Below are positions 12,854-42,403 of a DNA stretch of 47,006 nucleotides, one piece after another. The notes beneath the pieces were generated by a model that ran no database searches, was not told the origin of the DNA, and saw nothing but the letters and a program-made list of their open reading frames with translations. Each line of letters opens with the position of its first letter. Positions within the stretch are counted from its first letter, which is position 1. The stretch comes from Alphaproteobacteria bacterium. GTDB taxonomy: Bacteria; Pseudomonadota; Alphaproteobacteria; UBA828. The translations under genes were made by a program, and so were the position numbers. Location: NCBI GenBank assembly GCA_022826665.1, contig JAJDUK010000057.1:1-47006 (forward strand). The letters run 5' to 3'.

Positions 12854-14731
12854 ATGCTGACCCTCCAGAACATCGCCTACCGCGTCGAGGGGCGCCTGCT
12901 CTTCGAGGGCGTGACCGCGCAGATCGGCGCCCGCCAGAGGCTCGGGCTGGTCGGGCGCAACGGCTGCGGCAAAACGACCCTGCTCCGCCTCATCGCGGGC
13001 CGGCTCGAATCCGACGCCGGCGCGATCCTGCGCACGCGCGGGCTTGCCGTGCGGCTGGTCGACCAGGAGGTGCCGGGCGGGCCGGAGACGCCGCGCGCCG
13101 CCGTGCTCGCGGCGCACGAGGAACGCGCGGCCCTGATCGCCGAGACGGAAGGCGCCGAGGGGGCGCGCCGCGCCGAAATCGAGGCCCGGCTCGCGGAGAT
13201 CGGCGCGCACGCGGCCCCGGCGCGGGCTGCCCGCCTGCTCGCCGGCCTCGGCATCGACGAGGCGATGCAGCAGATGCCGCTCGCGGACCTCTCCGGCGGC
13301 TGGCGCATGCGCGTCGCACTCGCCGCCGCGCTCTTCGTCGAGCCCGACCTGCTGCTGCTGGACGAGCCGACCAACCACCTCGATCTGGAGGCGGCCGCGT
13401 GGCTGGAGGCCCACCTCAAGCGCTATCCCCGGGCGCTGGTCGTGGTAAGCCATGACCGCACCCTGCTCGATGCGGTGCCCGACGGGATCCTCCACATGGC
13501 GGGCGGGGGGCTGACCCATTACCCCGGCAACTACACGCGCTTCGCGAAGACCTATGCCGAGTCTCTCGCCACGGCGCGCGCCCAGCAGGCCCGTATCGAC
13601 GCCAGGCGGCGCCACCTCCAGGGCTTCGTCGACCGCTTTCGCTACAAGGCGAGCAAGGCGCGGCAGGCGCAAAGTCGCCTCAAGGCCCTCGCGAAGCTCG
13701 TTGACGTGCCGATGGTGATCGACGAGCGGACGCCGGATCTGACCTTCCCCGAGCCCACAGCGCTGGCGCCGCCGCTGATAAGCCTCGCGGGCGTGGCGGT
13801 CGGCTACGAGCCGGGCCGCCCCGTGCTGCGCGGCGTCAGCCTGCGTATCGACCCGGACGAGCGGGTGGCGCTGCTCGGCGCGAACGGCAACGGCAAGTCC
13901 ACCTTCGCCAAGCTGCTGGCGGACATGCTGGCGCCCGAGCGGGGCACGGTGACGCGGGCGCCGAGCCTCGCGGTCGGCTACTTCGCGCAGCACCAGATCG
14001 ACACGCTTGAGCCCGAGGGCACGGCGTTCGGCCACCTCGCGCGGCTCATGCCGGACGCCGCGCCCGAGCGCGTCCGCGCACGCCTCGGCGCCTTCGGCTT
14101 CGGCGGGGAGAAGGCGGACGTGGCGGTCGCCGCGCTCTCGGGCGGGGAGAAGGCGCGGCTCAACCTCGCGCTGATTTCGTGCCGGTCGCCGCAGCTTCTG
14201 GTGCTCGACGAGCCGACCAACCATCTCGACATCCAGAGCCGGCACGCACTGGTGGAAGCGCTGGAGGCCTACGACGGCGCGGTCGTGCTGATCACGCACG
14301 ACATGCACCTGGTCCAGCTCGTGGCCGACCGGCTGTGGCTGGTGCAGGACGGCACGGTGCGGGCCTACGACGGCGACGTCGCCGACTACCGCGCCGAAAT
14401 CCTCGGCGGCGAGGGGAAGCGGGCGGACGGCAACGGCAGCGAGAGCCGCCCGCCGCCCGCGCGCAAGGCCGCGCGGCAGGCCGCCGCTGCGGTGCGCGCC
14501 CGGCAGAAGCCCCTCAAGGATGCCGTGGCCGCGGCGGAGCAACGGATCGCAGATGCACAGGAGGCGCAGCGCTCGCTCCAGGCCGCGCTCGCCTTGGCCG
14601 CGGAGAAGAACGATGCCGCGCGGATCGCCGCCCTGGGCAAGGAGCTGGCGGAGGCAAAGCGGGACGAGGCGGCGGCCGAGGGCGATTGGCTCGCTGCCGC
14701 CGAGGCACTCGAACGTGCGGAGCCGAGCTAA
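12854..14731 (+). CDS. ABC-F family ATPase (YheS/Uup type)
   Basis: A 625-residue soluble protein with two ABC ATPase domains and no membrane domain; ABC-F proteins bind the ribosomal E site and modulate translation. Domain 1 has G-R-N-G-C-G-K-T-T, L-S-G-G-W-R-M-R and L-L-L-D-E-P-T-N-H-L-D. The interdomain linker (P-tRNA interaction motif) spans about residues 225-285 and is rich in R/K/A. Domain 2 has G-A-N-G-N-G-K-S-T, L-S-G-G-E-K-A-R and L-V-L-D-E-P-T-N-H-L-D. The last 95 residues form an Ala/Glu/Lys-rich coiled coil, as in Uup and YheS. All catalytic residues are present. The 3' end overlaps the convergent peptide-transporter ATPase by the four bases 14728-14731. Confidence 0.92.
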   Translation: MLTLQNIAYRVEGRLLFEGVTAQIGARQRLGLVGRNGCGKTTLLRLIAGRLESDAGAILRTRGLAVRLVDQEVPGGPETPRAAVLAAHEERAALIAETEGAEGARRAEIEARLAEIGAHAAPARAARLLAGLGIDEAMQQMPLADLSGGWRMRVALAAALFVEPDLLLLDEPTNHLDLEAAAWLEAHLKRYPRALVVVSHDRTLLDAVPDGILHMAGGGLTHYPGNYTRFAKTYAESLATARAQQARIDARRRHLQGFVDRFRYKASKARQAQSRLKALAKLVDVPMVIDERTPDLTFPEPTALAPPLISLAGVAVGYEPGRPVLRGVSLRIDPDERVALLGANGNGKSTFAKLLADMLAPERGTVTRAPSLAVGYFAQHQIDTLEPEGTAFGHLARLMPDAAPERVRARLGAFGFGGEKADVAVAALSGGEKARLNLALISCRSPQLLVLDEPTNHLDIQSRHALVEALEAYDGAVVLITHDMHLVQLVADRLWLVQDGTVRAYDGDVADYRAEILGGEGKRADGNGSESRPPPARKAARQAAAAVRARQKPLKDAVAAAEQRIADAQEAQRSLQAALALAAEKNDAARIAALGKELAEAKRDEAAAEGDWLAAAEALERAEPS

Positions 14732-16602
14732 GGGGCCGATGCCTCTCCGGCGGCGCGGCGGGCGCGGTTGGCGTCCGCGGCGGCGATAAGCTCGTCCTCG
14801 CTCGCATTGGCCCAGTAGCAGGCGCTGATCCGGCCGTCGCCACGGCTCTCCAGGCCCGGCTCGTCCGTCGTGCAGCGCTCGAAGGCGAGCGGGCAGCGCG
14901 AATTGAAGCTGCATCCCGGCGGAATGCCGATGGGGCTCGGCGGCTCGCCCTCCAGCAGGTTTTCCGCGGCGTCGTAGCGGCGCTCCTCGATGGTGGGCAC
15001 CGCGCTCAAGAGCGCCTTGGTATAGGGGTGGCCGGGGTTGAAGAAGACCGTGTGGTTGTCGGCGAGCTCGACGATCTTGCCGAGGTACATCACCGCGATC
15101 CGGGTGCAGGCGCGGCGCACCATGGCGAGATCGTGGGAGATGAAGATGTAGGTGAAGCCGTGCTCGGCCTGGAGCTTGTCGAAGATCTCCAGCAGCCGCG
15201 ATTGCTCCACCTGGTCGAGCGCGGACAGTGTCTCGTCCAGGATCAGGAGGCGGGGCTCCAGCACCAGTGCGCGGGCGAGGTTGATGCGCTGACGCTGGCC
15301 GGCGCTGAGGCCGATCTGCAGATGGTCGTAGATGTCGGCGGGCAGCCCGACCTCGTTCATCACTTCCAGCACGCGGTTCCGCATCGCGCGGCGCCCCATG
15401 CCGCCGTGGATCAGCAACGGCTCCAGGATGGTGCGGCCCACCGGCATGTGCGGCGGCATGGCGTTGTAGGGGTCCTGAAGCAGGAGCTGGAAGCGGTGCC
15501 GGAGCCCGAGCAGCCGGCGCCGGTTCATCTTGGCGACGCTCTCGCCCTCGAAGGAGATCGAGCCCTTGTCGGGCGCCTCGATCCAGCTCAGCAGGCGCGA
15601 CAGCGTCGACTTGCCGCAGCCGGACTCGCCGACGATGCCGAAATTCTCGCCCGCCTTCACGTTAAAGGTGACGCCGCGCACCGCTTCCACGTCGTTGTGG
15701 CCGAAGAAGCGGGTCGGGTCGTTAACCCGGTAGGTCTTGTAGACGTCGTCCACCTCCAGCAGCGCGGCCTCGCCCTCGGTCTTGGGTTGGGCGCGCTCCT
15801 CCACCGCCCAGATGCGCGGGATACGCTCCAGCAGCCGCTTGGAGTAATCGTGCTCGGGCGCCGCAACGATGGCCTCCGGCGTCGAGCGCTCGATGATACG
15901 TCCTTCTTGAAGCACGATGATGTCGTCCGCGATCTCCCGCACGATGGCGAGCGATGACGAGATGAAGATGATCGCCGTGTCCAGCTGGTCGCGCAGGTCG
16001 TGCATCAGGCGGATAATCTGCGCAGCGACGGTGACGTCGAGCTGCTGGGTGACGTTGTCAGCGATGAGGAACGTGGGGTTGCTGACCAGGGCATCGACGA
16101 TCAGCGCGCGTTGCATCATGCCGCCGGAATACTGGAAGGGAAACTCGTCGAAGCGGCGTTCGGGGCGCGGCATGCGCACCGCGCTCAGCACCTCCAGCGC
16201 GCGTTCGCGTGCGGCCTGCTTGGACATGTCCGGCTGGACCGCGCGCAGCTTCTCCACGATCTGATGGCCGACTGGGATGGTCGGATCCAAGGCGCTGCCG
16301 GGGTCCGAGCCGATATAGCCGATCTCGCGACCGCGCAGCGCCTGCATCTCGGCCGCGGGTATGGTGAGCAGGTCCCGCCCGTGATAGCCGACGCTGCCGG
16401 CAGTAATCTCGAGCGGCTCCGTGATCGCATTGCAGAGCACGCGGCTCAGCACGGTCTTGCCCGAGCCGCTTTCGCCGATGATGCCGAGCACCTGGCGCTC
16501 GCGCAGCTGGAAGCTCACGTCGCGCAGGATCGGCTCGCTCACGCTGCGGCGGACGAGATCGACCGAAATGCCCTGTGCGTCGAGGAGCGGCGGCGCAGCC
16601 AT
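14728..16602 (-). CDS. Fused oligopeptide-type ABC ATPase, first half degenerate
   Basis: A 624-residue fusion of the two ATPases (DppD/OppD-like and DppF/OppF-like) of a peptide/nickel-type importer. Half 1: Walker A G-E-S-G-S-G-K-T at 43-50 and signature Y-S-G-G-M-M-Q-R at 158-165 are intact, but Walker B reads L-I-A-D-N-V, placing N183 at the catalytic Glu; the Q-loop Gln is replaced (G-S-D-P), and the switch His is S216 (F-I-S-S-S-L). Half 2: G-E-S-G-C-G-K-S-T, L-S-A-G-Q-R-Q-R, L-I-L-D-E-T and F-I-S-H-D-L are intact, followed by the C-terminal P-x-C-x-F-N-S-R-C-P cysteine motif (G-C-S-F-N-S-R-C-P). One hydrolysis site therefore appears inactive. Confidence 0.9.
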   Translation of the reverse strand: MAAPPLLDAQGISVDLVRRSVSEPILRDVSFQLRERQVLGIIGESGSGKTVLSRVLCNAITEPLEITAGSVGYHGRDLLTIPAAEMQALRGREIGYIGSDPGSALDPTIPVGHQIVEKLRAVQPDMSKQAARERALEVLSAVRMPRPERRFDEFPFQYSGGMMQRALIVDALVSNPTFLIADNVTQQLDVTVAAQIIRLMHDLRDQLDTAIIFISSSLAIVREIADDIIVLQEGRIIERSTPEAIVAAPEHDYSKRLLERIPRIWAVEERAQPKTEGEAALLEVDDVYKTYRVNDPTRFFGHNDVEAVRGVTFNVKAGENFGIVGESGCGKSTLSRLLSWIEAPDKGSISFEGESVAKMNRRRLLGLRHRFQLLLQDPYNAMPPHMPVGRTILEPLLIHGGMGRRAMRNRVLEVMNEVGLPADIYDHLQIGLSAGQRQRINLARALVLEPRLLILDETLSALDQVEQSRLLEIFDKLQAEHGFTYIFISHDLAMVRRACTRIAVMYLGKIVELADNHTVFFNPGHPYTKALLSAVPTIEERRYDAAENLLEGEPPSPIGIPPGCSFNSRCPLAFERCTTDEPGLESRGDGRISACYWANASEDELIAAADANRARRAAGEASAP

Positions 16603-16605
16603 GGG

Positions 16606-17514
16606 CTAGACGATCCCCTTGAACAGCTTGTTGCGGGCGCGCTCCAGCGAGGCGCCCATCAGGTTGATGCTGATGAGCGTGAGGATGAGGAAGACCCCGG
16701 GCATCGTCGGGATCCACCAGCTGTTCACCAGGTATTTGTAGCCGTCGGCGATGATGTTGCCGAAGGTCGGCGTCGGCGGCTGGATGCCGATGCCGAGGAA
16801 GCCGAACAGCGCCTCGAAGATCATCATGCGGGCGATGTCGAGCACGGCGACGAAGGCGATGGGCGGCAGGATGTTGGGCGAGATCATCAGCGTGGCGATC
16901 CTTAGATCGCTCGCACCCAGAATCTTCGCCCCCCGCACGTATTCGCGCTCGCGCTCGGCGAGCGCGATGCTTCGCACCACGCGGGCATAAATCGGCCACC
17001 CAGCCAGCACCAGCACGGCGGTTACCGTGAAGGGATTGGGGCGGCTCACGCTCAGGATCGTGATCGCCAGCACGATCACCGGGATCGAGAGCTGCGCGTC
17101 GGTAATGCGCATCAGGATGATATCGACCCAACGGCCCCAGTAGCCGGAAATCACGCCGAGCGCGCAGCCGATGACGAACATGATTGCAACCGCCGCCGCG
17201 GCGATGCCGAGCCCGTTGCGGAGTCCCACCAGAGAACGCACGAAGAGGTCTCGGCCGAGCTGGTCAGTGCCGGCGAGATGGGCCCAGGTGCCGCCCTCCA
17301 GGAAGATGGGCGGCAGGAAACGCTCGCGCACGCTGATCTTCATGGGATCGTAGGGCGAGAGCTCCGGCCAAATGATCGCGGCGCCGACGAGCAAGGTGAA
17401 GACGCCGAGCCCGATCTTGAAGCTCGTCATCTCCCAGGCGAGGCGGAACATCCGCCGGGTGACGGATTCGCCCCTTCCCCGCGCGGGACTGCTCGTTCCG
17501 GTCTCGGCAGCCAT
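16606..17514 (-). CDS. Oligopeptide-type ABC permease, DppC-like
   Basis: A 302-residue inner-membrane permease. An N-terminal membrane helix follows about 30 cytoplasmic residues, then comes the DppC landmark H-L-A-G-T-D-Q-L-G-R-D-L-F-V-R-S (about 80-95) and the coupling loop R-E-R-E-Y-V-R-G-A-K-I-L-G-A-S-D. Its ATG overlaps the DppB stop by one base (TGATG), and its stop is 3 bp before the ATPase start, so the three genes are tightly coupled. The substrate class could be peptides, nickel chelates or glycosides. Confidence 0.92.
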   Translation of the reverse strand: MAAETGTSSPARGRGESVTRRMFRLAWEMTSFKIGLGVFTLLVGAAIIWPELSPYDPMKISVRERFLPPIFLEGGTWAHLAGTDQLGRDLFVRSLVGLRNGLGIAAAAVAIMFVIGCALGVISGYWGRWVDIILMRITDAQLSIPVIVLAITILSVSRPNPFTVTAVLVLAGWPIYARVVRSIALAEREREYVRGAKILGASDLRIATLMISPNILPPIAFVAVLDIARMMIFEALFGFLGIGIQPPTPTFGNIIADGYKYLVNSWWIPTMPGVFLILTLISINLMGASLERARNKLFKGIV

Positions 17515-18533
17515 CAGAACTTGAGCCTGCGGTCGATGAAGGTGGACGCGAGGTCCACCATGATGTTGGCGAGCACGAGAATGCTCGCCGCCAGGATGGC
17601 GACGCCCTGAATCACCGGGAAGTCACGCTGCAGCACCGCCTGCACGGTGGACCGCCCGACACCGGGATAGTCGAACACGAACTCGGTGACGAAGACGCCG
17701 CCGAGCAGCAGGCCGCCGATCTGCACGCCGAAGAGGTTCAGCATGGGAATCGACGAGTTGCGCAGCACATGGCGCACGATGATCTGCCGCCAGGGCAGCC
17801 CGCGCACGATGCCGCCGGAGACGTAGCCCGCCTGCAGCGCCTGGGCGATCGACATCGAAAGCCCGCGGATGATGATGGGTGCCAGCTCCACCGCCAGCAC
17901 GATGGCCGGCAGGATGACGTAGCCGAAGCCCTTGTAGCCGATGGAGGGCAGCAGGCCCGCGCGCGCCGTGATCAGCAGGATCAGCACCAGGGCTAACCAG
18001 AAGTTTGGCAGCGATATGAAGACCGAACCGATGAAGAATGCTAATCGGTCTTGCCACTTCTCCTGATTGAGGCCGGCCGCAATTCCAAGCGGCACCGCCA
18101 TCAAGAGCGTAAACAGCAAGCCCATGCCCGCCAGCATCAGCGTGTACGGCAGACCGTCGGCGATGACCTTGAGCACGCCGGCGCGGGTCATCTTGGCCTC
18201 GCGCTGCTCGGTGGCGGTGTCCTGCCCCTTGCCGCCGACGACGTTCTGCGCCGTGAGCGCGATGCCGGTCTCGCCGATGAAGTAGGATTCGCCGAAGTCG
18301 CCCTGCACCGCCTTGGCGATGTAGCGGACGAACTGCTCGGGGATCGAATCGCGCAGGCCCAGCTCCTGCGCGCGGGCCTCGACCACCGCCTGGGTGGTGG
18401 CGGGCCCCAGCATGATCCGCACGGGATCGCCCGGAATGACCCGCAGCAACGTGAAGATCAGGAACGTCACCAGCAGCACGATGACCACGCCCTGCGCAAG
18501 GCGGCGGATCAGGAACGTGAGGACGAATGCCAT
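17514..18533 (-). CDS. Oligopeptide-type ABC permease, DppB-like
   Basis: A 339-residue inner-membrane permease. The N-terminus (F-L-I-R-R-L-A-Q-G-V-V-I-V) and P-G-D-P-V-R are typical of DppB, and the coupling loop follows about residue 210. After the G-D-F-G-E-S-Y motif there is an insert of roughly 30 hydrophilic residues (including G-G-K-G-Q-D-T-A-T-E-Q-R-E-A-K) before the second membrane block, which makes the first periplasmic region longer than in E. coli DppB. It starts 75 bp after the binding protein, across a perfect hairpin. Confidence 0.92.
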   Translation of the reverse strand: MAFVLTFLIRRLAQGVVIVLLVTFLIFTLLRVIPGDPVRIMLGPATTQAVVEARAQELGLRDSIPEQFVRYIAKAVQGDFGESYFIGETGIALTAQNVVGGKGQDTATEQREAKMTRAGVLKVIADGLPYTLMLAGMGLLFTLLMAVPLGIAAGLNQEKWQDRLAFFIGSVFISLPNFWLALVLILLITARAGLLPSIGYKGFGYVILPAIVLAVELAPIIIRGLSMSIAQALQAGYVSGGIVRGLPWRQIIVRHVLRNSSIPMLNLFGVQIGGLLLGGVFVTEFVFDYPGVGRSTVQAVLQRDFPVIQGVAILAASILVLANIMVDLASTFIDRRLKF

Positions 18534-18567
18534 GCTGGGACCGTGCTACGCGGCGGGATGAAGAGAG

Positions 18568-18597
18568 GCGGGGGCTCCGCCTGCCCGGAGCCCCCGC
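18568..18597 (-). terminator. Perfect hairpin between binding protein and permease genes
   Basis: GCGGGGGCTCCG (18568-18579) pairs perfectly with CGGAGCCCCCGC (18586-18597), loop of 6, starting 11 bp past the binding-protein stop on the minus strand. No T run follows (CTCTCTTC), so it should act as a 3' stabiliser or partial terminator that favours binding-protein mRNA over the membrane genes. Confidence 0.6.
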
Positions 18598-18607
18598 AAA
18601 GGATCGG

Positions 18608-20170
18608 TCAAGACGTGAGCGTCGCTTTGACCTTGTCCACCGGCCCGTTGGGCAGAAAGTAGATCCCCTCGATAGCCGGATGGTGGGCGTGGATCAGCAC
18701 CGAGGTGAAGAGCCCGAAGCTCGGCAGATGGTCGGCCAGCGCCGGCATCAGCTCGTTCTGGATCGACGCGCGCCGCGCGTCCACGTCGGTGATCGTCTGC
18801 TGCTTCTCGATCGCCGCATCCACGGTGTCGCTGCCGCAGTTGGTCAGGATCAGGCCGTCCGAATGCCACATGGGCCTGAGCACCAGGTTGGGCTCGGGCG
18901 ATCCGGTCATCCAGCCGGTATCGGCAAGCTGAGGCGCGGTCTCGTCGCGGACGAACACGCGCTCGATCCAGGAGGCGACCTCCATCACCGTGAACTCTAC
19001 CGGGAAGCCCTGCTCCTGCAGCAGCGCGGTGATGACCTCGCCGTACTCCTTGGTCTTCGGATAGAAGCCTTGCGAGGTCAGGTACTCGATCGGCGGCAGG
19101 CCGTCGCCGCCGGGGTAGCCGGCCTCGGCCAGCAGCTCCTGGCAACGCTCGGGGTTGTATTCCGGCGAGTTCGGGATGGTGTCGGTGTAGCCGAACTTCG
19201 CCGAGGAGAGCTGCCCCACCGTCGGGTGCCCGGCCGGCCCCATCAGCTCGAGGATGAGGTCGCGGTCGATGGCGTGGGCCGCCGCGTGGCGCAGGCGCAC
19301 GTCGTCGAACGGCGGCTCGTAGCAGCGGAAATGGAGGTACTTGTTCTCGGTCGAGACCGTGCGCGAGGTCGTGACGTCCTCCTCCAGCAGGGTCTCGTAC
19401 TGCTCGGGCTCGACCCGCTCGATGATGTCGAGCTCGCCACTTATCAGGCTCACGAGGCGCGTGCTGGCGTCGGGCACGAACTGGTAGACGACCTCCTCGA
19501 TCTCGGGCGTGCCGAGAATGTAGTCGGGGTTGGCGTTGAGGATCGTCGTCGGCCCGTCGCGGCTGATGAATTTGTAGGAGCCCGAGCCGTTGGGGAACTC
19601 GTCGATGGCCTTGGTCTCGATATCGTCCTTCGACAGGATCGGCAGGAAGCCCGCGAGGAACCAGAACAGCGAGCCCGGATAGGAGCCGCCTTCGCCGCGC
19701 ACCCGACAGGTGTAGTCGTCGACCACCTGCACCTCGGCCTGGCCGGGATACCAGGTGCCGGACGGCCGCTCGGGATTGGACGCGTACTCGAAGGTCGCCT
19801 TCACGTCGTGCGCCGTGAAGGGCTGGCCGCGGTGGAACTTGATGTCCTTGCGCAGCGTGTACTCGAGCCAGCCGTCCTCGACCACGTTCTGGCTGGTCGC
19901 CATTTCGTAGACGATTTCGTCCGGCTGGGCCTGCGACATCGGCGTGCGGATGAGCTGGCCGAACACGTCATAGTCGAAATAGATCTGCGCCAGGATGGTG
20001 TGGCTGCTCGGGTCCCAGCTCGACGTGAAGGGCTCGGTCTGCCCCCACACGACGCTCTTCTTCCCCTGGCCCAGCGCCTTCTTGAAGAAAGGCGCCTGTC
20101 CGCCGAATGCAGCGATCGTGCCGGCTGCGGCGGTGCCTTTCAGGAAATTGCGCCGTGTCGTCTTGGTCAT
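18608..20170 (-). CDS. Tat-exported oligopeptide-type substrate-binding protein
   Basis: A 520-residue family-5 binding protein for the DppBC-DF importer. The signal is a near-consensus twin-arginine peptide, T-R-R-N-F-L-K at residues 5-11, followed by A-A-A-G-T-I-A-A-F-G. Family landmarks include the Y-x-x-L-R-x-D-I-K-F-H-x-G-x-x-F-T-A-x-D-V region (about 105-130) and the C-terminal G-W-x-x-x-x-P segment (D-T-G-W-M-T-G-S-P-E). ATG 20170 has GGGGAG in front; the upstream frame extension has no signal peptide. First gene of the operon. Ligand not deducible. Confidence 0.9.
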   Translation of the reverse strand: MTKTTRRNFLKGTAAAGTIAAFGGQAPFFKKALGQGKKSVVWGQTEPFTSSWDPSSHTILAQIYFDYDVFGQLIRTPMSQAQPDEIVYEMATSQNVVEDGWLEYTLRKDIKFHRGQPFTAHDVKATFEYASNPERPSGTWYPGQAEVQVVDDYTCRVRGEGGSYPGSLFWFLAGFLPILSKDDIETKAIDEFPNGSGSYKFISRDGPTTILNANPDYILGTPEIEEVVYQFVPDASTRLVSLISGELDIIERVEPEQYETLLEEDVTTSRTVSTENKYLHFRCYEPPFDDVRLRHAAAHAIDRDLILELMGPAGHPTVGQLSSAKFGYTDTIPNSPEYNPERCQELLAEAGYPGGDGLPPIEYLTSQGFYPKTKEYGEVITALLQEQGFPVEFTVMEVASWIERVFVRDETAPQLADTGWMTGSPEPNLVLRPMWHSDGLILTNCGSDTVDAAIEKQQTITDVDARRASIQNELMPALADHLPSFGLFTSVLIHAHHPAIEGIYFLPNGPVDKVKATLTS

Positions 20171-20219
20171 CGGTATCTCCCCTCTGCGTCGTGCGCGTTC
20201 TTGTCGATGAGCGATGCTA

Positions 20220-20247
20220 GTACAGCCGTGGCGGAAGTGTACAGCCC
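20220..20247. repeat. Direct repeat GTACAGCC in a divergent promoter region
   Basis: GTACAGCC occurs at 20220-20227 and again at 20239-20246 (19 bp apart) in the 148-bp space between the divergently transcribed peptide-importer operon and the PLP-enzyme gene. It could be a regulator site acting on either side. No matching regulator gene is adjacent. Confidence 0.25.
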
Positions 20248-20318
20248 GACTATCGCCCTCGGTTGCCGGGCGCTTCCCGCCGGCGATAGGATGGCCCGGA
20301 GGCCGGCGGAGGAGTGGC

Positions 20319-35188: not shown

Positions 35189-35575
35189 TCACCAGAGCCG
35201 ACTCACGCCGTAGCGATCAAAGGTCCTGTCGATTGAGACGATTGCCAGCTCATGTCCCAGGGCTTGCGCGATAAGCATTCGGTCGAAGGGATCGCGGTGA
35301 ATTCCGGGCAATCGCCCGGCACGTTCGGCATCGGCGACGCTGACCGAAAGCGCCTCGAAGCCTTCGTCCGCGATGCAACCGGCGACGTTCGTCGCGACGG
35401 CTTCAGCCTCCGGCAGCTTACCGATACGGTACTTTGTGGCGATTTCCCATGCGGAGGCCGCGCTCACGACGATATCGTTAGCCTCGTCAGCGATTACCCG
35501 ATGTGCAGTTGCAACAAGGTAAGGACTAGCCTCGACCCACCATAGGAACGCATGGGTGTCCAGCAGCACCCGCAC
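35189..35575 (-). CDS. PIN-domain toxin of a VapBC-type system
   Basis: A 128-residue PIN-domain ribonuclease toxin. The acidic residues that hold the metal are D6 (L-L-D-T-H), E44 (A-W-E-I), D98 (in H-R-D-P-F-D-R-M-L) and D116 (I-D-R-T). All are present, so it is likely active. The start is GTG, 3 bp after the antitoxin stop, so translation is coupled. The D-T-H-A-F-L-W-W opening is typical of the PIN group that pairs with Phd/YefM-type antitoxins. No rare-codon or AT bias distinguishes it from the flanks. Confidence 0.9.
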   Translation of the reverse strand: MRVLLDTHAFLWWVEASPYLVATAHRVIADEANDIVVSAASAWEIATKYRIGKLPEAEAVATNVAGCIADEGFEALSVSVADAERAGRLPGIHRDPFDRMLIAQALGHELAIVSIDRTFDRYGVSRLW

Positions 35576-35578
35576 TGA

Positions 35579-35812
35579 CTATCTGCCTTCCCAGAGCTTT
35601 AGCTCCTCCTCCGGCAGCGGGTCGAAGAAATCGTCGGGAATAACGACCTTGCCCTTGAGCCGACCAGGGCGTCGCTTCCCTCGCGGCTTGCAGGCGACGA
35701 GTCGGGCCACCGGCTCGCCACGGCGGGCGATCACCACTTCCTCGCCGCCCTCCACGCGCGCAAGCAATCGGGAAAGCTGGGTCTTGGCCTCATGGACATT
35801 CACGACAGTCAT
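35579..35812 (-). CDS. Phd/YefM-type antitoxin
   Basis: A 77-residue antitoxin. The opening N-V-H-E-A-K-T-Q-L-S-R-L-L-A-R-V-E-G-G is the Phd/YefM fold, which binds DNA and dimerises; E-V-V-I-A-R-R-G-E-P-V-A-R-L-V follows. The C-terminal acidic stretch (D-D-F-F-D-P-L-P-E-E-E-L) is the usual toxin-neutralising segment. First in the pair, with an AT-rich operator in its 26-43 bp upstream region, consistent with self-repression by the complex. Confidence 0.9.
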   Translation of the reverse strand: MTVVNVHEAKTQLSRLLARVEGGEEVVIARRGEPVARLVACKPRGKRRPGRLKGKVVIPDDFFDPLPEEELKLWEGR

Positions 35813-36673: not shown

Positions 36674-37357
36674 ATGGTCGAACGCAAGATGGGCGAGAGC
36701 GACGAGGGCAGCGGCGAGAGCGCCGAGCCCGCCAAGGCGAAGCCGCGCCTGGCCTGGGATCAGCGGCTCGCCCGCTGGATGGTGCGGCCGCTCGTGCACA
36801 CGCCGGTCACGCCGAACCACATCACCACGGTCAGGCTTCTTCTCGGGCTCGCAGCCTGCGGCCTCTTCGCGATGGGCACGCGGCCGGAGATTCTCTACGC
36901 CGCCGGGCTCTTCATGCTCTCCAACTTCGTCGATCACATGGATGGCGAGCTGGCGCGGCTTTCCGGCAAGTCCAGCCGCTTCGGCTATCACTACGACAAC
37001 TACTCCGACGCCTTCATCCACGTGACGCTCTTCGTCTGCATCGGCATCGGCCTGCAAGACAGCTGGATCGGCATCTGGGCGCCCTATCTCGGGCTGATCG
37101 CCGGGGTCTCGGTCTCGGCGCTCTTCCTCATGTTCTGGCGGATCGAGCAGCGCGCCGGCACGCGCCAGGCGCGGCAGCCGATGTTCAAGGGAATTCACCT
37201 GGAGGACGCGATGTATTTCATCGGTCCCATCACCTGGGGCGGCGGTCTGATCGTGCTGCTGCTCGCCGGCGTCGCGCTGCCGCCGATCTACGTTGTTTGG
37301 CTCGCCTGGAAGGAGCGCGGGCTGCTGTTCGGCAAGCCGCCGGAGGCCTCGTCATGA
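36674..37357 (+). CDS. CDP-alcohol phosphatidyltransferase family protein
   Basis: A 227-residue membrane enzyme that transfers a phosphoalcohol from a CDP-linked donor. The catalytic motif D-G-x2-A-R-x8-G-x3-D-x3-D fits exactly (D-G-E-L-A-R ... G-Y-H-Y-D-N-Y-S-D, about residues 97-119). Several membrane helices follow (about 125-215). Acceptor and donor are not specified by the motif. It lies opposite the nucleotidyltransferase and overlaps hpnA by 4 bp (ATGA), so the three are functionally linked by position. Confidence 0.9.
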   Translation: MVERKMGESDEGSGESAEPAKAKPRLAWDQRLARWMVRPLVHTPVTPNHITTVRLLLGLAACGLFAMGTRPEILYAAGLFMLSNFVDHMDGELARLSGKSSRFGYHYDNYSDAFIHVTLFVCIGIGLQDSWIGIWAPYLGLIAGVSVSALFLMFWRIEQRAGTRQARQPMFKGIHLEDAMYFIGPITWGGGLIVLLLAGVALPPIYVVWLAWKERGLLFGKPPEASS

Positions 37358-38340
37358 CCACGCTCGTCACAGGTGCAACCGGCTTTCTCGGCTCCGCCGT
37401 CGCCCGCGCGCTGCTCGACTCCGGCCACGCGGTGCGCGTGCTCACGCGGCAGGGGGCCGATACGCGCAACATCGACGGCCTCGACGTGGAGCGGGCGATC
37501 GGCGACCTCAACGACCGCGCCTCGCTGGAGAAGGCCGCGCAGGGCTGCGATACGCTCTTCCACGTGGCGGCCGACTATCGGCTCTGGATTCCCGATCCGC
37601 CCGCGATCTATCGCACCAACGTGGACGGCAGCCGCGATCTGCTGCGCGCGGCCGCGGCCGCCGGCGCCACGCGCATCGTCTACACCTCGAGCGTCGCCAC
37701 GCTCGGCCTCAACGCGGACCATTCGCCGGCCGACGAGGAGACGGCCGTGACCGAATCCGCCATGATCGGCCACTACAAGCGCTCCAAGTATCTGGCGGAG
37801 GAGGCGGTGCGCGCGCTGGTCCGCGACGAGGGGGTGCCGGCAGTGATCGTCAACCCCTCGGCACCCATCGGCCCGCGCGACATCAAGCCGACGCCCACCG
37901 GGCGGATCATCGTCGACTTCGCGACCGGCCGGATGCCGGCCTATGTCGATACCGGCCTCAACGTGGTGCACGTCGACGACTGCGCCGCCGGCCACCTGCA
38001 GGCGCTGGAGCGTGGCGCCGTGGGGGAGCGCTACATTTTGGGCGGCGAGGACATGACGCTCCGGGAGATTCTTGAGTGCCTCGCGCGGCTCACGGGGCGC
38101 CCAGCGCCGCGAATCCGGCTCTCGCACAGGCTGCTCGCGCCGGTGGCCGCCGCCGGCGAAGGCTGGGCGCGCGTCGCAGGCGGGGAGCCGCGGCTCACCC
38201 GCGACAGCCTGCGCATGGCGCGCAAGATGATGTTCTTCTCGTCCGCCAAGGCCGAGCGCGAGCTCGGCTACACGGCGCGTCCCGCCGAACGGGCACTTGC
38301 AGACGCGCTGCGCTGGTTTCAGGCCAACGGCTACGTGTGA
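37354..38340 (+). CDS. hpnA: Hopanoid-associated sugar epimerase HpnA
   Basis: A 328-residue extended SDR. G-A-T-G-F-L-G-S-A-V near residue 7 is the NAD(P) loop, the catalytic region has T-S-S-V-A-T-L-G and Y-K-R-S-K-Y-L-A-E (Y in Y-K-R-S-K), and V-N-P-S-A-P-I-G-P-R-D is typical of HpnA. Members of this group occur in hopanoid gene clusters and are assigned to modification of the hopanoid side chain, though the reaction is not firmly shown. Only this hpn gene is in the window. It overlaps the CDP-alcohol transferase stop by four bases, which suggests one transcript. Confidence 0.88.
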   Translation: MTTLVTGATGFLGSAVARALLDSGHAVRVLTRQGADTRNIDGLDVERAIGDLNDRASLEKAAQGCDTLFHVAADYRLWIPDPPAIYRTNVDGSRDLLRAAAAAGATRIVYTSSVATLGLNADHSPADEETAVTESAMIGHYKRSKYLAEEAVRALVRDEGVPAVIVNPSAPIGPRDIKPTPTGRIIVDFATGRMPAYVDTGLNVVHVDDCAAGHLQALERGAVGERYILGGEDMTLREILECLARLTGRPAPRIRLSHRLLAPVAAAGEGWARVAGGEPRLTRDSLRMARKMMFFSSAKAERELGYTARPAERALADALRWFQANGYV

Positions 38341-38459
38341 ACGTCATTGGGAGCCGGTAAGTGACCGATATCGAACGGAAATGATATTACTCGTGAGCCC
38401 GAGTTGTCGGTATTGTTCGGAACACATCCAGATTTTCAATTTGAGTCAGGCGTGATATG

Positions 38460-38492
38460 CTACTCACCATAGTCACCTCTAATGCTGAGTAG
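38460..38492. repeat. Inverted repeat CTACTCA/TGAGTAG
   Basis: CTACTCA (38460-38466) and TGAGTAG (38486-38492) form a 7-bp stem with a 19-nt loop immediately upstream of the first small gene's second start. AGTCAC also occurs next to each arm. It may be an operator or control start-site access. Confidence 0.3.
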
Positions 38493-38769
38493 TCACATGG
38501 ATCTCTGGCACGAGATTGTAGCGGCTGTAGCTGCAATCCTCGTCTCTGCTGGCGTTCTCTTGGGTGGTATACGTTGGGCAGTGTCTGGTGCCCTCACTCC
38601 ACTTCGAGCCGACATGAGTGCTCTCCGCAATGAAATGAGTTCACTCCGTGACAGGGTTCATGAGGACCTTCGCGGAACAGGTGAACGACTCGCGCGTGTT
38701 GAAGCAACAATCACCGCCACAGAACATCGACTCAACCGCATAGAACTACACGGGCCAATCCATGACTGA
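38482..38769 (+). CDS. Small membrane-anchored coiled-coil protein, unknown
   Basis: A 95-residue protein. One membrane helix (about residues 9-32, rich in A, V, L, G, ending I-R-W-A-V-S-G) is followed by a heptad-like coiled coil (about 40-90: M-S-A-L-R-N-E-M-S-S-L-R-D-R-V and later R-V-E-A-T-I-T-A-T-E-H-R-L-N-R). The ATG at 38497 (M-D-L-W-H-E-I) is an alternative start. No ribosome site is strong. It overlaps the next gene by 8 bp, so the two act as a pair. The layout resembles small holin-like or envelope-anchored partner proteins, but I do not recognise it. Confidence 0.55.
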   Translation: MLSSHMDLWHEIVAAVAAILVSAGVLLGGIRWAVSGALTPLRADMSALRNEMSSLRDRVHEDLRGTGERLARVEATITATEHRLNRIELHGPIHD

Positions 38770-39028
38770 CATCAATGACACATTGAATCGAATGAACGGC
38801 CAAATTGCTGCGGCTCACATGGTCGCAACATTAGCAATGTCGTTCGCTGCTGGCAATCAAACCGTAGCCCGTAATTTGGCTCAATCTATCGCTAATCTAT
38901 CCAATAATCTGGACCCAAACAATCATGAAGAATTTAATCGAGGCTTTAAGGAGAGTATTACGAAAATGGAAAACATTATAGCCAATAGCACATTTGAGGG
39001 AGGAGCGGTGCGTCTCGATATAGGGTAG
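38762..39028 (+). CDS. Small helical protein, unknown
   Basis: An 88-residue protein, AT-rich in composition and mostly predicted helical, with a hydrophobic stretch A-A-A-H-M-V-A-T-L-A-M-S-F-A-A (about 16-30) too weak for a clear membrane segment. The remainder is Asn-rich and polar (I-A-N-L-S-N-N-L-D-P-N-N-H-E-E-F). It starts inside the end of the coiled-coil gene (8-bp overlap), implying coupling. Not recognised. Confidence 0.5.
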   Translation: MTDINDTLNRMNGQIAAAHMVATLAMSFAAGNQTVARNLAQSIANLSNNLDPNNHEEFNRGFKESITKMENIIANSTFEGGAVRLDIG

Positions 39029-39290
39029 CGCGTCCAGTATTTTCGTAGTTGTTACTACAAGAACTGACTTGACTAATCGAATGAACAAACGGTTTATGTG
39101 CTCTTGTAATGTGATTTTTCTCGCTGATTTGCACGGTTAAAACATCTGCAGCAGCTCCGCTACCTTCGGCATCGACAGGAACTGCGTCCAACAGTACTTG
39201 AACACTCCACGTGCCTCTGCGTTTGGCTTCCAACAGTTGCGTCTTTTGGCTAATCGTGGTCTCTCCATAACGATAAGCCTGACAGGACAT
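38976..39290 (-). CDS. Candidate small protein on minus strand, unknown
   Basis: A possible 104-residue product. It has a good AAGGG ribosome site 6 bp before the ATG and contains G-T-W-S-V-Q-V-L-L-D-A-V-P-V-D-A-E, which looks like real beta-strand coding sequence. Against it, its 3' end overlaps the plus-strand gene by 53 bp, and no family is recognised. Either this or the plus-strand gene's tail may be spurious. Confidence 0.3.
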   Translation of the reverse strand: MSCQAYRYGETTISQKTQLLEAKRRGTWSVQVLLDAVPVDAEGSGAAADVLTVQISEKNHITRAHKPFVHSISQVSSCSNNYENTGRATLYRDAPLLPQMCYWL

Positions 39291-39459
39291 TGCGTGCCCT
39301 TGCTAGTGAGAGCGAATGGGGTATCAGCAACAAACGTCTCGGGTGAACTTTCGGCTCCATCCCGACCATGCTATGATGACCGGATCAGGTCAAATATCCC
39401 AATACATCAATCTCTTAATCAATCTTAGCGGCGTAGGATAGAGCGAGCAGGACGAGGAC

Positions 39460-40428
39460 ATGGAATACGGCTTCAACGTACCCAACGGCGGGCCTCTGGC
39501 CGTGCCGGAGCACATCGCGACCCTCGCCCAGCATGGCGAAAAGCTGGGTTACCGAATCCTCGCGATTCCGGATCACATCGTGGTACCCACGGGCATCGAC
39601 TCGCCTTACCCCTACTCGCCCGACGGCAAGCTCACCTTTCCCACCCTGCTCGCCGGCGAATGCCTGGAGCCGCTCGCGCTCATGGCCTACCTCGCGGGCG
39701 TCACGACGGAGATGCGGCTGCTCACCTCGGTGATGGTGGTGCCCTACCGGCAACCGGTTCTGACGGCGAAGCTTCTCTCCACCATCGATCTGCTCTCGGG
39801 CGGGCGCGCGGTGGTGGGCGTCGGCGCCGGCTGGATGGCCGAGGAGTTCCCGCCGGTGGATGCACCGCCCTTCGAGGCCCGAGGCCGGGCGACCGACGAA
39901 TACCTGCGCATCTACAAGGAGCTCTGGACCGCCGACGCGCCCAAGTACGAAGGCGAGTTCACTTCGTTCGATAACATCCTGTTCCATCCGAAGCCGGTAC
40001 AGAAGCCGCATCCGCCGATCTGGGTCGGCGGCGAGAGCAAGCCCGCCAAGCGGCGGACCGTGCGCTACGGCGACGCCTGGTTCCCGATCGGCTGTAACCC
40101 GCGCTTCCCGATGGACACCATTGGGCGCTTCGCCGCCGGCCTCGACGACCTTCGCGCGATGGCGGAGACGGAGGGCCGCGACCCGGCCAGCATCGACATC
40201 GCCTTCTGGGCCGTGTGGTACGGCGCCAGTGCGGAGCCGATCATCACCGACACGGGCGAGCGGATGCTGCTCACGGGCTCGGCGGACGACATCGCGGGCG
40301 ACATCCGGGCGATGCGCGAACTCGGGGTGCGCCACCTCGCGATCCAGGTCCTGCGCGAGACCCTCGAGGAAACCCTCGACGTCATCACCGGGTTCGCCGA
40401 GGAGGTACGCCCCAAGGCCGACGCGTAA
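39460..40428 (+). CDS. LLM-class flavin/F420-dependent oxidoreductase (copy 2)
   Basis: A 322-residue luciferase-like protein. The start M-E-Y-G-F-N-V-P-N-G-G, I-P-D-H-I-V-V-P (about 37-44), and L-L-S-G-G-R-A-V-V-G-V-G-A-G-W (about 110-125) fit the TIGR03619-like group that includes F420-dependent enzymes. It has low similarity to copy 1 and a different subfamily signature. An AGGACGAGGAC site precedes the ATG. Its promoter region lies in or beside the AT-rich island. Convergent with the second hydantoinase B gene (9 bp apart). Confidence 0.9.
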   Translation: MEYGFNVPNGGPLAVPEHIATLAQHGEKLGYRILAIPDHIVVPTGIDSPYPYSPDGKLTFPTLLAGECLEPLALMAYLAGVTTEMRLLTSVMVVPYRQPVLTAKLLSTIDLLSGGRAVVGVGAGWMAEEFPPVDAPPFEARGRATDEYLRIYKELWTADAPKYEGEFTSFDNILFHPKPVQKPHPPIWVGGESKPAKRRTVRYGDAWFPIGCNPRFPMDTIGRFAAGLDDLRAMAETEGRDPASIDIAFWAVWYGASAEPIITDTGERMLLTGSADDIAGDIRAMRELGVRHLAIQVLRETLEETLDVITGFAEEVRPKADA

Positions 40429-42222: not shown

Positions 42223-42403
42223 CAGCTTCGTCCTTCTCGTCCGCTCCAGTCCGCCCACTACCTTATGATCCGTGTCGGCCGGGGTCCAACCATCGGCAGG
42301 CGCGTCTTCACGAGCCAGGATTGCCCTACCGGAGCACGCCCGGCCGGCTCGAAGACACGGAATGGTATCGTCGTGCCTCGCGCATCCGTTCCGGAGGCCT
42401 GCG

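Follow-up and report, generated by a model that had tools for sequence, protein, structure and literature searches.

The term minimal mobile element, due to Saunders and Snyder (2002, as cited in PMC4269198), stands for a cassette lying between conserved flanking genes. The locus described here, a low-G+C block between hpnA and an LLM-family gene, resembles such elements in its small size and low G+C, in its place between two conserved genes and in having no mobility genes of its own; hpnA and the LLM gene adjoin in each of the seven congeners searched (seven genomes, one per species). It departs from them in three respects: the seven other sites are empty, with gaps of 112–130 bp and no alternative cassettes among these single representatives of each species; the genes carried are orphans and not, for example, restriction-modification genes; and a short target duplication may be present. 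Insertion sequences and their non-autonomous derivatives are a second point of comparison. The sequence AACGTC on both edges of the insert is a possible target duplication. Unlike those elements, the insert has no terminal inverted repeats (the best inverted match of its ends is at shuffle level, p 0.64–0.99) and it is single-copy, with no further copies in the genome and no credible second copy of its ends. Type II toxin-antitoxin operons, finally, are likewise made up of two short, co-directed, overlapping genes that were gained recently, but neither of the two genes found here (ORF1 and ORF2) has a recognised toxin or antitoxin domain.

A recent insertion between hpnA and the LLM-family gene

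The window, 47,006 nucleotides in length, is the entire contig C80 of the genome. G+C content is 48% in the block as against 64–72% around it, and the abrupt composition shift pointed out in the preliminary description is borne out in 500-bp windows, in which the values drop from 0.64–0.71 to 0.486 and 0.496 (38501–39500) and return to 0.66. Over positions 38341–39459 as a whole G+C is 0.48, the lowest 60-bp values being 0.35–0.37, and at third codon positions the difference is wider still (0.43–0.45 in the block vs 0.89–0.91 for the adjoining genes). No match was obtained in tRNA and Rfam scans of the window.

The preliminary description had proposed to check whether related genomes lack the island at this site; every congener does, and neither the island DNA nor ORF2 nor the minus-strand ORF could be found in these seven genomes. 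Nucleotide homology to five of them (BLAST) ends at 38343–38345. On the other side, positions 2–129 of the 130-bp gap of congener G004 align to 39335–39459 of the window (z 12.9 vs shuffles), and the flanks joined without the insert give a continuous alignment with this genome. Since the G004 gap aligns end to end, the right flank is taken to predate the insertion. The insert occupies about 38346–39338, edges that are approximate by a few bases owing to the flanking repeat (Table 1). The island had earlier been drawn from 38341 to 39440; the low-GC block itself stands, but the terminal ~100–120 bp of that interval belong to native intergenic DNA. The interpretation of the block as an insertion is well supported, and the acquisition of this ORFan cassette is real and recent. 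As to the flank at 39335–39459, its G+C is below that of the gaps of the congeners, and it resembles G004 only and not the nearest congener, G001; because of this resemblance to G004 alone, its own history is not simple and may have involved recombination.

Table 1. Coordinates of the insert, its neighbours and the features recognised in and around it.
Feature	Position	Strand	Remarks
hpnA	37354–38340		Left neighbour of the low-G+C block
Direct repeat AACGTC, left copy	38340–38345	+	Overlaps the final base of the hpnA stop codon
Inserted cassette	38346–39338		993 bp, 48% G+C; from absence in congeners and G004 gap alignment
Promoter-like pair TTTTCA-17-TATGCT	38433–38461	+	Weak, putative; 8/12 matches, by eye
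Inverted repeat CTACTCACCAT/ATGCTGAGTAG	38460–38492	+	Arms 38460–38470 and 38482–38492, 10/11 paired
ORF1	38482–38769	+	95 aa, or 90 aa from an internal ATG at 38497
ORF2	38762–39028	+	88 aa; orphan, soluble and helical; start lies in the overlap with the ORF1 stop (ATGACTGA)
Minus-strand ORF	38976–39290	-	104 aa; coding status borderline
Direct repeat AACGTC, right copy	39333–39338	+	Right insert edge
Native intergenic region 5' of LLM gene	39339–39459	+	Outside the insert; from G004 gap alignment
LLM-family gene	39460–40428		Right neighbour of the low-G+C block

The direct repeat may be a trace of the insertion event. Where G004 has a G, both copies of AACGTC have an A, as expected of a duplication within this lineage. 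We regard the pair as a candidate for a target duplication and give it modest weight, as suggestive only: chance alone puts a 6-mer shared with the left edge into 0.6% of random stretches and 2.8% of those from the island, and the extension of the flank alignment to CGTC is marginal by score, so that the repeat depends in part on the way in which the flanks are aligned. Neither a transposase nor an integrase was found in the insert. An integron cassette was considered and rejected, as no GTTRRRY core could be seen by eye at either edge.

Other sites of the window also vary among the congeners. A Phd/YefM antitoxin and a PIN-domain (VapC-like) toxin form a pair on the minus strand at 35189–35812; both are kept in G001, G004 and G007, G005 keeps the antitoxin with the toxin missing at the same place, and neither was matched in the stretch of G006 that was examined. 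At 14725–20253, a region of about 5.5 kb in which oligopeptide-type ABC transporter genes lie corresponds to 43 bp in G005, and by this alignment it is a further site of gain or loss. Extra sequence of about 11.5 kb is present in G005 at 42325–42335.

Two overlapping genes

The insert contains two co-directed reading frames that, as had been described, overlap by exactly 8 bp (ATGACTGA). ORF1 has a single transmembrane segment (about residues 7–27) followed by a heptad coiled coil, and its structure model is one helix spanning residues 2–85 (mean pLDDT 91), in agreement with the membrane-anchored coiled-coil protein of the preliminary description. Acidic residues precede the transmembrane segment and arginines follow it, a distribution of charges that suggests a cytoplasmic coiled coil. 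The model of ORF2 consists of three helices at low confidence (mean pLDDT 63).

A clear ribosome site is absent at both possible starts of ORF1. Upstream, the promoter-like pair falls below the cut-off of the promoter scan, which did not list it. The inverted repeat reported earlier is real and spans the presumed transcription start and the first ATG of ORF1, although 9.5% of shuffles contain one of equal quality. For ORF2, too, no strong Shine-Dalgarno match is seen, which fits translational coupling to ORF1. Among spacings of co-directed prokaryotic gene pairs, the -8 ATGNNTGA overlap ranks third; gene pairs with short overlaps encode parts of a common complex more often than others, and in E. 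coli heteromeric subunits make up 30.4% of the pairs spaced -8 to +10 vs 6.8% of those beyond 20 nt (PMC10666635). Such a common spacing, together with the weak ribosome sites, fits coupled synthesis of the two proteins.

It is unlikely that the insert is acquired but non-functional foreign DNA, its frames being chance or decayed remnants without a product. Such a reading would account for the weak ribosome sites and for homologues being absent wherever they were searched, and long frames do arise easily here, as illustrated by the third ORF, on the minus strand: an ORF of its length, 104 aa, is expected in 28% of shuffles. This frame has an RNY p of 0.023 and a search for its relatives found none. 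The candidate antisense-strand gene of the preliminary description is unproven; a further ORF, at 39198, looks like a chance frame. The tandem pair is another matter. Two ATG-started ORFs of at least 85 codons within 30 bp were seen in just 0.4% of 2000 dinucleotide shuffles, and an overlap of the ATGNNTGA kind is typical for genes. When this DNA was shuffled and ~600 chance ORFs were taken from the shuffles, the hydrophobic segment of ORF1 (mean hydropathy 2.56) and its heptad score were each unequalled among them, and none reached the codon periodicity of ORF2 (RNY fraction 0.43). The G+C of ORF1 by codon position (0.70/0.48/0.45) is likewise coding-like. Although the tandem-ORF and coding tests were picked post hoc, with the sequence already seen, ORF1 and ORF2 look like genes and not chance frames. 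Missing homologues and unconserved frames had been named at the outset as signs of random open frames in AT-rich DNA: homologues are indeed absent from everything searched, but the coding signals speak against random frames.

Searches for relatives and known systems

Protein scans against Pfam, NCBIfam, PHROGs and PADLOC gave no credible family for either product, all matches being at chance level or biased by coiled coils. No relative of ORF2 was found in viral contigs, GTDB contigs, phages, plasmids or 60 relatives, nor in 289 genomes of the class and 398 of the phylum, both sets being samples, and the close-relative scans used exact short peptides, which can miss distant relatives. For ORF1, searches by sequence returned weak matches only, alike in helix pattern (L026, L027 and L045). 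The first of these, at L026 1483–1761, is an ORF of 92 aa from a different bacterium of the class (E 1.8e-4, 30% identity). Together with PHROG 1009 it represents small proteins with an N-terminal transmembrane segment and a coiled coil, which are like ORF1 in architecture and size; the similarity, however, is one of coiled-coil composition, and the L026 gene has other surroundings, with no relative of ORF2 found anywhere. The island DNA had no match among plasmids and phages, a PDB sequence search had none, nothing with E ≤ 0.001 came out of a fold search with the poor ORF2 model, and a second locus with both ORFs was not found in the collections searched. By these comparisons, none of the collections contains a credible relative of ORF1 or of ORF2.

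The preliminary description had called the pair defence-like. A toxin-antitoxin or other defence-like module, with the small membrane protein ORF1 controlled by a cytosolic ORF2, is in our estimate unlikely. Size, overlap, gene order and recent acquisition are all similar to those of such pairs, and the genus keeps and loses toxin-antitoxin genes nearby (the Phd-VapC pair). PADLOC, however, gave nothing for ORF1 and for ORF2 only chance-level matches, to Cas11 fragments (E 0.01, 29 residues), and thus no known component of an anti-phage system; no toxin-antitoxin family of Pfam or NCBIfam rose above its cut-off for either ORF, and in neither protein is a DNA-binding domain recognised. With no credible match to PADLOC, toxin-antitoxin, Pfam, NCBIfam or PHROG families, the defence-like label is unsupported.

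In a further reading, the two ORFs are accessory or lysis-related genes that a phage or satellite left behind. Phages commonly encode small proteins with a transmembrane segment and a coiled coil, and ORF1 matches PHROG 1009 with E 3.6e-7 and a holin family with E 0.09. That origin is distinctly unlikely, though. The PHROG 1009 model also matches long coiled-coil frames that are unrelated, as well as 4 of the 14 genomes used as controls, and the match probably reflects coiled-coil bias; viral or phage relatives were found for neither ORF in the collections searched, and the insert has no integrase or other recognisable phage gene. That the genes are ancestral and were lost by all other congeners is very improbable: a deletion is formally possible in each lineage, with nothing further in its favour, but seven losses would be required, one of them in the nearest congener G001 (LLM gene 97% identical), the composition is foreign, and G004 has a complete gap rather than a deletion scar.

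A probable horizontally acquired ORFan cassette

The account we favour, tentatively and at somewhat less than even confidence, is that of an ORFan cassette gained by horizontal transfer, the products of which would pair up as a membrane-tethered unit. In this lineage the foreign cassette entered directly 3' of the stop codon of hpnA, perhaps with a duplication of about 6 target bp, and would act as a two-gene unit of ORF1 and ORF2. The product of ORF1 would be a small inner-membrane protein with an N-terminal transmembrane helix and a coiled coil predicted to face the cytoplasm, and that of ORF2 a small soluble helical protein, its translation probably coupled to ORF1 through the overlap. In the likeliest working of the pair, ORF1 would oligomerise at the membrane and keep its partner ORF2 there, with a possible benefit to the host. 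Weighing against the account are the lack of homologues of either protein in the collections searched, an insert with no transposase, integrase or terminal inverted repeat, the alignment-dependent direct repeat, the low confidence of the ORF2 model, the weak ribosome sites of ORF1 and a right flank that is like G004 but not like G001. A bolder version of this account, in which the two proteins make up an undescribed membrane-tethered system, such as a module for defence or conflict, and travel on a mobile, target-duplicating cassette that lacks a transposase, strikes us as highly doubtful.

As now known, the cassette is one among very many acquired ORFan cassettes. With its empty sites and near-exact edges, it is a clean case of very short cassettes of orphan genes entering a genome without a recognisable mobility gene. 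Should the pair prove functional as a system, it would count as a new module of two genes.
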